Of a DNA stretch of 64,000 nt, positions 37,385 to 38,770 are shown piece after piece. The position numbers were made by a program, and so were the translations under genes. This DNA is from Streptomyces sp. DHE7-1 (GTDB lineage: Bacteria > Actinomycetota > Actinomycetes > Streptomycetales > Streptomycetaceae). Numbering within the stretch: position 1 is the stretch's first letter; each line of letters starts with the position of its first letter. Under the pieces are notes generated by a model. It saw only the letters and a list, made by a program, of their open reading frames with translations, had not been told where the DNA came from and did no database searches. The stretch lies in assembly GCA_016432725.1 (NCBI GenBank), contig JACJDG010000003.1, forward strand, positions 1,116,001-1,180,000, given 5' to 3'.

Positions 37385-38029
37385 ATGGACACCACGCAGC
37401 GGACCGATCAGCAGCGGTCCGCCGACCGCCGACGGCGCGAGCTGCTGGAGGCCGCCGACCGGGTGGTGCTGCGCGACGGCCCGCAGGCGTCGATGAACGC
37501 GATCGCCGCCGAGGCCGGCATCACGAAGCCGATCCTGTACCGGCACTTCGGCGACAAGGGCGGCCTGTACGCGGCCCTGGCCAAGCGGCACACGGACGCG
37601 CTGCTCGACTCGCTGCGCGCCGCGCTGGACGCGCCCGCCGAGCGGCGCGAGCGGGTGGAGTCCACCCTGGACACCTACCTCGCGGCGATCGAGGCCCGGC
37701 CCCAGGTGTACCGGTTCCTCATGCACCCGGCCGAGGGCAGCACCGGCGGCGACCAGGGGTTCGACGTCGGCAAGCACAGCGCCCCGCTGCTTCGCCGGAT
37801 GGGCGAGGAACTGGCCCAGGTCATCGAGGAGCGGCTGGACCTCGGACCGGGCAGTCAGCAGCTCGCCCGGGTCTGGGGACACGGGATCGTCGGGATGATG
37901 CACGCGGCCGGCGACTGGTGGCTCGGCGAACGCCCCTGCTCCCGGGCCGAGTTGGTCCGCTCGCTCGCCGACCTGCTGTGGGGCAGGCTCGCCGCGGCCG
38001 GGGACCGGGTCGGCGGCCCGGGCTTCTGA
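37385..38029 (+). CDS. TetR-family transcriptional regulator
   Basis: 214 residues. N-terminal HTH: ELLEAADRVVLRDGPQASMN, AIAAEAGITKPILYRHFGDK, GGLYAALAKRH. The remainder is an all-helical ligand domain with ending resembling TetR_C regulators of fatty-acid genes. Divergent from the acyl-CoA dehydrogenase gene, which it probably represses, with an acyl-CoA or related ligand (inference). Its stop is 17 bp before a very long hairpin. Confidence 0.9.
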   Translation: MDTTQRTDQQRSADRRRRELLEAADRVVLRDGPQASMNAIAAEAGITKPILYRHFGDKGGLYAALAKRHTDALLDSLRAALDAPAERRERVESTLDTYLAAIEARPQVYRFLMHPAEGSTGGDQGFDVGKHSAPLLRRMGEELAQVIEERLDLGPGSQQLARVWGHGIVGMMHAAGDWWLGERPCSRAELVRSLADLLWGRLAAAGDRVGGPGF

Positions 38030-38046
38030 CCGCGGGCCCCGGCCCC

Positions 38047-38211
38047 AGGGGGCGTCTCCCCGGTCTTCGTGGATCAGGCCGCGGCGTCCGGTGCGGCGCC
38101 TCGGCGTGCGGTCGAGTCGCCCCCGTACCGGGCGTACGTGGGCGATTCGAACGTGCGGCGAGGTGCCGCACCGGGCGTCGCGGACCCGCGAAGACCGGGG
38201 GGACGCCCCCT
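38047..38211 (+). ncRNA. 165-nt near-complete hairpin, possible structured RNA or bidirectional terminator
   Basis: Nearly the whole segment folds on itself. The outer arm pairs 38047-38074 with 38184-38211; after a 4-nt bulge (38075-38078) the inner arm pairs 38079-38128 with 38134-38183, leaving a 5-nt loop (38129-38133). By hand I count about 74 pairs, of which 8 are G-U on the plus strand, against four mismatches (A-C, G-G, G-A, C-U). It fills most of the gap between the convergent tetR and def stops; the def stop codon (38210-38212) sits at its edge. It far exceeds a usual terminator. Family not recognised. Confidence 0.7.
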
Positions 38212-38770
38212 AAGTCCCGGCCCGGCCGCCCGCGCGGTGCCAGGCGGCCCGGTCGATCCGCCGCCGCAGCCGCCGGTGGCGCAGACCCGTCAGACGGTCG
38301 GCGTACACCGTGCCCGCCAGGTGGTCGCACTCGTGCTGGAGACACCTGGCGAAGAATCCCGTGCCGTGGACGGTGACCGGTTCCCCGGCCGCCGTGAAGC
38401 CCTCGACCACCGCGTGGTCGTACCGTTCCGTCCCCGCCTCCAGTCCTGGCAGGGAGAGACAGCCCTCAGGGCCCCGGATCACCACGCCGTCCGCCGCCAC
38501 CAGGCGCGGATTGACCACGTGGCCGAGGTGCCGGACGTCCTCGTCGTCGGGACAGTCGTAGACGAACACCCGCAAAGGGACACCGATCTGGTTCGCGGCC
38601 AGGCCCACCCCCTGGGCCGCGTACATGGTCGCGAACAAGTCCTCCACGAGTGCGGACAGTTCGGGGCCGAAGTCGGTGACGTCCGCGCAGGGCCCGTGCA
38701 GAACGGGGTCCCCGAGCAGGGAAAGGGGCCGGACGCGCCCGTGGGCGCCCGGGATGGGGCGGTGTCGCAT
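38210..38770 (-). CDS. def: Peptide deformylase
   Basis: 186 residues. Removes the N-terminal formyl group from new proteins. All three PDF motifs are present: GVGLAANQIG (I), EGCLSLPG (II, metal Cys) and QHECDHLAG (III, metal His pair and catalytic Glu). ATG 38768-38770. It is the kind of accessory def copy common in Streptomyces. It ends at the edge of the 165-nt hairpin, which probably terminates it. Confidence 0.94.
   Translation of the reverse strand: MRHRPIPGAHGRVRPLSLLGDPVLHGPCADVTDFGPELSALVEDLFATMYAAQGVGLAANQIGVPLRVFVYDCPDDEDVRHLGHVVNPRLVAADGVVIRGPEGCLSLPGLEAGTERYDHAVVEGFTAAGEPVTVHGTGFFARCLQHECDHLAGTVYADRLTGLRHRRLRRRIDRAAWHRAGGRAGT

Follow-up and report, generated by a model that had tools for sequence, protein, structure and literature searches.

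Short mobile palindromes whose transcripts fold into stem-loops are already known from several bacteria, YPAL, ERIC, Correia and RUP among them (PMC2229807 and PMC10969869). The subject here is a long hairpin from Streptomyces sp. DHE7-1, situated at positions 38047–38211 of a 64,000-nucleotide (nt) stretch (hereafter the window; contig JACJDG010000003.1, positions 1,116,001–1,180,000) between the convergent genes tetR and def. Judged from sequence comparison, it is very probably one copy of a dispersed fold-back element, likely a nonautonomous transposon moved in trans by DDE transposases, inserted at a CTAG-type site from which def takes its stop codon. One of the closest described systems, YPAL or RU-2 of Yersinia (~168 bp), is likewise a mobile palindromic intergenic repeat of similar length with an RNA stem-loop and with both empty and filled sites, but it is without TA at its termini and duplicates 3–26 bp (PMC2229807), whereas CTAG flanks most young copies of the Streptomyces element and the ends of several of its families match those of known transposon families. 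ERIC (also IRU or RU-1; 127 bp, enterobacteria) does have TA at its termini, and its orientation alters its effect on mRNA (PMC2229807); the Streptomyces element differs in joining one core to many end types, the two being likened by description and not by sequence. Correia or NEMIS elements of Neisseria and RUP of S. pneumoniae are also short, with terminal inverted repeats, TA termini and stem-loop transcripts, and Correia RNA is cleaved by RNase III (PMC10969869 and PMC2229807). REP sequences, which occur with RAYT, are dispersed palindromes bearing a tetranucleotide tag; they measure 20–40 bp, and the tags are GTAG/CGTC (PMC3733652). Correia/NEMIS and RUP belong to other hosts and are set apart from the present element by description, not by sequence. 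RUP has an IS630-type partner, REP/RAYT uses a Y1 enzyme, and to our knowledge Correia/NEMIS and RUP are each bound to one transposon type. Among insertion sequences (ISs), the IS5 (IS427 group) and IS630 families share CTAG sites with the Streptomyces element and ends with several of its families; unlike it, they encode DDE transposases.

Bacterial miniature inverted-repeat transposable elements (MITEs) are usually taken as relics of one IS. What seems new here is that a single core, its structure conserved in a strand-specific way, is joined to ends that belong to unrelated transposases. This combination occurs across Streptomyces, a genus central to antibiotic production. It makes testable whether short mobile repeats of bacteria have a function of their own as a selected RNA (or single-stranded DNA, ssDNA), and would also account for some long hairpins at gene ends and for how stop codons turn into insertion sites. 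A literature search that included PMC4681348, PMC10969869, and PMC2229807 returned no description of the element family, an absence that is weak because most subscription papers fell outside it; the MITE review among them (PMC10969869) does not mention Streptomyces.

The window hairpin is a nearly uninterrupted stem. Folded as RNA, the plus strand reaches −159.4 kcal/mol (z −13.9) with 73 pairs (53 G–C, 12 A–U, and 8 G–U), a 5-nt loop at 38129–38133, a 6/2 internal loop that amounts to a 4-nt asymmetry, and three 1×1 mismatches, much as a first-pass annotation of the letters had described it by hand. The minus strand of the same segment reaches −131.2 kcal/mol (z −11.2), and in neither case did any of 200 shuffles fold as well. 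As ssDNA the plus strand is again the better of the two (−93.1 vs. −76.9), and the comparison of both strands that the annotation had proposed thus gives the same answer for RNA and for DNA. When the two arms are aligned as DNA and G–U and A–C are scored alike, there are 66 Watson–Crick pairs, eight G–U, no A–C, and four others; the eight plus-strand G–U wobbles counted earlier are recovered, while the single A–C counted beside them is not.

The genome that contains the window (8.14 Mb) holds at least 18 full-length copies of this element, termed family A, in a search that scored 40 of 217 candidates. The other 17 are 88–96% identical to the window copy in one orientation, against 73–78% for all 18 in reverse, so that the element is itself directional. 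In the alignment, the 18 copies start with GGGGCGTCTCCCC, finish with GGGGAGACGCCCC, and are bracketed by tetramers, in most cases CTAG, CCAG, or CTGG; the family ends read GGGGCGTCTCCCCGATC. At 161 bp, dispersed in at least 18 full copies and without a transposase gene, the element resembles what is generally called a MITE. The same genome also holds family B (13 copies) and family C (three), whose arms are different and whose inner core is common to all three. When 56 complete or partial cores from this genome and its relatives are oriented by sequence, the top strand has the better fold in 55. A covariance model built from 25 cores chosen among these 56 detects the core in 99 of 121 same-genus genomes (E 0.001, with 33 candidates scored per genome) and, at E 1e-5, in 27 of 296 genomes of the class, 19 from the same genus and eight, with weaker scores, from four other genera; nucleotide matches occur in 25 of 61 relatives. 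The core is further present on 14 plasmid records (Streptomyces, Embleya), 13 with no feature listed under the match in a gene table that is itself incomplete and the fourteenth without annotation; a search of 50,697 phage records gave no match.

The outer arms are exchangeable, the same ~101-nt core carrying different arms in different families, and many of these arms resemble transposon ends. Numerous IS5/IS427-type transposons of these genomes start CTAG followed by G..TGTC. When 18 element end types were compared over 16 bases with 17 hand-picked IS ends, 14 resembled an IS5-group end at p < 0.05 (single-base shuffle test, uncorrected; the L255 end had been found by searching with the G024 element's own end); the three T-starting ends (C, G070, and G400) and G449 did not. 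The terminal bases of family B are identical at 21 of 21 positions to one end of two ~893-bp IS427-type elements on plasmids, which carry DUF4096 and DDE_Tnp_1 transposase parts, and the other ends of these two elements show two mismatches and one mismatch in 21. G070 ends match both ends of a 1,237-bp IS630 element (DDE_3) at 26 and 25 of 27 positions, or 27 and 26 of 30; another plasmid carries an identical copy of that IS630 element, and Rhodococcus a more distant one. For family C, the match is to the ends flanking a different IS630 gene (27 and 25 of 30 positions). The G024 family agrees at 14 of 16 end bases with an 869-bp IS5-type element whose open reading frames (ORFs) are broken and give matches to HTH_Tnp_4 and, at a weak level, to DDE_Tnp_1. 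Among the plasmid loci examined, no partner was found for G088-type ends. In the mechanism suggested by these likenesses, DDE transposases would recognize the exchangeable arms and move the element in trans. Two other candidates were discarded: IS701 ends, as a source of the T-starting arms, show no resemblance where IS630 fits, and a family B-like pair of ends 907 bp apart (5361035–5361941), considered as an autonomous IS, spans an apparent host gene and is a chance match.

The insertion site can be read from relatives in which it is empty. The flanks of seven copies, joined with the element removed, were compared with 392 same-genus genomes. Many relatives match straight across the junction of copy L048; 28 of the 29 loci fetched were alignable, and their empty target reads CTAG in 20, TCAG in seven, and TTAG in one, in every case the stop codon (TAG, TGA, or TAA) of the neighboring gene. 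Among the matches listed, some also span the junctions of L042 and L046. Congruent with this, CTAG stands on both sides of 26 of 28 copies in three young families (12 of 13 in G400, 9 of 10 in G062, and 5 of 5 in G070). At the window, def does terminate within the right edge of the hairpin, as the earlier description had it, with its TAG at 38210–38212 on the minus strand. Insertion would thus take place at CTAG, often a stop codon, with duplication of the CTAG or of just its TA. A target on the left side only, of the HUH-like kind hinted at by the CCAG and CTGG left junctions of family A, was dropped given the L048 empty site and the young families.

The wobble of the element is one-sided. 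G–U is ahead of A–C in all 18 family A copies (182:32 summed), and the homologues hold 146 G–U cells against five A–C. In 12 elements scored symmetrically the ratio is 106:13, or 14:2 in the outer arms alone (p 0.004), and 26 loci treated apart, after four of 30 had been dropped for giving no core, have 39 G–U and nine A–C in their outer arms. Across 33 arm clusters, formed by the 96 of 111 candidate loci that satisfied the alignment cut-offs, with the best-preserved member standing for each cluster, the core count is 241:34 with G–U leading in all 33; the outer arms give 45:14, with 17 clusters for, five against, and 11 tied. The 25-core alignment adds covariation. Twelve of its 34 core pairs have changed on both sides with pairing kept, 98.0% of cells are paired versus 86.1% in shuffles, and the doubly changed cells number 95 against 32.9 ± 4.2, a value as high being reached in none of 500 shuffles; the structure was taken from the same alignment and the shuffles ignore relatedness, which makes this support and not a probability. 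The first-pass annotation had staked its reading of the bias on covariation among homologues and on A–C being rarer there than G–U, and both came out in its favor. Some wobbles are fixed in place: pair 4–99 is G–U in 20 of the 25 sequences and pair 13–90 in 23, while pair 17–86 is U–G in 12 and G–U in 11. The pattern is most simply read as selection, in active source copies, for the fold of one strand, and such selection is likely; each family keeps the same strand able to pair, and the bias belongs to the element. Since it is family-wide, across copies that lie beside other genes, selection would act at the level of the element and not of tetR.

What is selected is probably the hairpin of a transcript, a preference for RNA over ssDNA that we hold with modest confidence: wobbles are kept and even swapped (U–G to G–U), and the partners are DDE elements. 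The competing possibility is a need for the top strand to fold as DNA while the element is transposed or replicated, similar to IS200/IS605 or REP systems. Transposition of top-strand ssDNA is expected to give a one-strand bias, and the DNA energies favor the same strand as the RNA energies, so that fold energies do not decide between the two. The Y1 transposase family PF01797, however, has no match in this genome at E 0.001, on which ground mobilization of the IS200/IS605 or REP type was rejected, the ends match those of DDE elements, which move as double strands, and wobbles held at fixed pairs together with the swap at 17–86 exceed mere tolerance of a DNA mismatch. We regard ssDNA as an unlikely, if serious, contender for the selected form. 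The earlier inference from bias to selection on a plus-strand RNA is thereby upheld as regards selection on one strand, and loosened as regards the molecule, which may be ssDNA as well as RNA.

Alternatively, each family might be an internal-deletion relic of its own IS, the cores having come to resemble one another by decay or recombination and serving no function. The arms do match IS ends, as those of a relic would. Yet the apical core motif is absent from all six IS sequences compared (two of them identical), and a search of the 56 cores against the same six gave just three matches of 19–29 nt at E 0.01. With no core in these six bodies, it is not simply the remnant of one of these ISs; it is nonetheless common to IS5- and IS630-type ends, extends beyond the genus, and has 44 of 102 alignment columns invariant across the 25 cores. 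An origin of this kind is quite unlikely. A bolder extension of the transposon reading, held at somewhat short of even confidence, is a transposase-agnostic hairpin parasite: the core would be selected as folded RNA and would stay mobile by adopting the ends of any CTAG-targeting DDE transposon that is active (IS5/IS427, IS5-type, and IS630). By fold-back copying across the hairpin core, one captured transposon end would become two matching ones; this would account for the near-perfect pairing of the outer arms and for how little full elements vary in size, ~160–180 bp.

Conceivably, the wobble bias is a by-product of mutation, for example C-to-T deamination of one transcribed strand. Any G–U can be written, against a perfect palindrome, as a plus-strand C-to-T or A-to-G change, and all differences from consensus in family B do comprise 11 C>T versus four G>A (a count from which L064, one of 12, was dropped for lack of recognized ends, with L099 outside the set). 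Singletons, most likely of post-insertion origin, are balanced or lean in the opposite direction: among the 18 family A copies 12 turn a Watson–Crick pair into A–C and seven into G–U, in family B three and four, and by direction they amount to three C>T and 11 G>A in family A and two of each in family B. All differences in family A are balanced, at 21 and 21. Because private mutations show no G–U excess, mutation pressure is a poor explanation of the bias; changes on both sides that keep pairing, in more cells than in any of the 500 shuffles, speak against it too, and we consider it very unlikely.

There remains the locus itself. In 77 of 80 def loci from relatives tetR is convergent with def, and at none of the 80 is there a family A match (E < 1e-5). 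By crude ORF scoring, family A copies lie between convergent genes in 12 of 18 cases, between tandem genes in four, and inside a predicted ORF in two; for family B (n = 13) the figures are three, five, and five, and all three family C copies are between convergent genes. In the nine tandem cases the element is co-oriented with the genes four times and opposed to them five times. That the hairpin evolved in the host as a tetR 3′ untranslated region (UTR), a free RNA, or a two-sided terminator between convergent genes is extremely unlikely, for although its fold is strong and convergent genes flank the window copy, most of family A, and the whole of family C, the same element stands beside other genes and is missing from the relatives' def loci, family B is mostly not convergent, a scan of 37900–38400 (at most 20 pairs, loops 3–8) found no U-tract terminator pattern, and convergent 3′ gaps are where an insertion is least harmful. 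The 3′ UTR of tetR as the selected unit, put forward in the first-pass annotation, does not survive, at least 18 copies and 80 def loci ruling out any UTR or RNA specific to tetR. The hairpin may act on tetR and def as a terminator or insulator, an effect that would be incidental.

Several observations weigh against a DDE-mobilized element that inserts at CTAG and is selected for the fold of one strand. The window copy has no intact duplication, its junctions reading CCAG and CTAA; on the left, family A departs from CTAG in 11 of 18 copies (CTAG 7, CCAG 7, and CTGG 4); three of five G090 copies read CTAA/TTAG, which fits a duplication of TA rather than of four bases; and in seven copies from other genera the ends are less regular. 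The comparison is between genomes of different species, and in G306, the closest relative whose L048 site is empty, the target is TCAG in place of CTAG. As to partners, that of family C is weaker, its right end lying 455 bp past the IS630 gene and overlapping another annotated gene, and two further C-type ends, L385 and L387, are close to IS5 genes but form no inverted pair around them. For family A the best IS end reaches just 11 of 16, no plasmid match covers 80% of its end, and no partner was found in 18 loci of this genome with 21 PF13340 matches, a search that left out IS630 (PF13358) and PF13613/PF13359. On the side of the bias, L053 folds better on the other strand, the arm clusters are not independent, with core ancestry shared and some arms related, and the C>T excess over all family B differences has been given above.

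The left junctions of family A that are not CTAG are exclusively CCAG or CTGG, each a single transition away from CTAG. They may reflect decay of whichever target copy does not have to serve as a stop codon, and a Vsr-like repair bias against CTAG, we presume, may act on them. Coordinates at the window and of related insertions are collected in Table 1.

Table 1. Features of the hairpin locus (window positions) and IS481 insertions in family B hairpins (positions on C1)
Feature	Position	Strand	Remark
Full element, family A copy	38049..38209	+	161 bp; near-perfect hairpin; plus is the better-folding top strand
Left junction tetramer CCAG	38045..38048		Read as a decayed CTAG target, as suggested by family A left tetramers, young families, and the L048 empty site
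Right junction tetramer CTAA	38210..38213		Its CTA (38210–38212) is the TAG stop codon of def on the minus strand
5′ outer arm	38049..38080	+	Starts GGGGCGTCTCCCC; 11/16 like IS5-type ends
3′ outer arm	38182..38209	+	Finishes GGGGGGACGCCCC
Conserved core	38081..38181	+	101 nt; common to the element families compared
Apical pentaloop CGGGC	38129..38133	+	GTAC/GTAC closing stem; in a highly conserved segment
tetR	37385..38029	+	TetR_N and TetR_C_32; convergent neighbor
def	38210..38770	−	Polypeptide deformylase; convergent neighbor
IS481 copy in family B junction, L039	C1:7228376–7229468		
IS481 copy in family B junction, L059	C1:5338820–5339912		
IS481 copy in family B junction, L065	C1:1262963–1264055		

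An IS481-family element of 1,093 bp has four near-identical full-length copies in this genome, three of which lie precisely within the CTAG at the end of a family B hairpin and are flanked by NCTAGN duplications. It was considered as the mobilizer and rejected, since its ends differ and it duplicates NCTAGN; instead it uses the hairpin junctions as a target, and family B hairpin ends act as landing sites for IS481.

Shortened and enlarged forms of the element also occur. Minimal derivatives of approximately the form CTAG-GGGGCGTCTCCCC-CTAG, some with altered junction letters, are found at L077, L078 (two), and L080, and would fit a deletion between the CCCC repeats of the two arms. An extra short hairpin-like insert in one or both core arms is present in L256–L262 (G024), L023, and L025, and insert-bearing forms of 199 and 232 bp keep the same ends.

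The gap between def and tetR is occupied in many relatives (L182, L197, L202, L212, and others) by other recurrent Streptomyces hairpins, AGGGGCGCGGGGAACTGCGCGAC...AGCCCC and GGGGCTGTATCGATATGCGGCTCCGCCGCGTGGGCGCGACCAGCCCC, and in L175 and L236 what appear by eye to be decayed remnants of other families start at the stop codon of def. The window hairpin matches no Rfam family in a search at E up to 1, and a pattern scan of the site gave no sigma-70-like promoter. Elsewhere in the window, Rfam matches comprise the 5′ ureB small RNA (RF02514; 57864–58156, plus strand) and a cobalamin riboswitch (RF00174; 15575–15694, minus strand).
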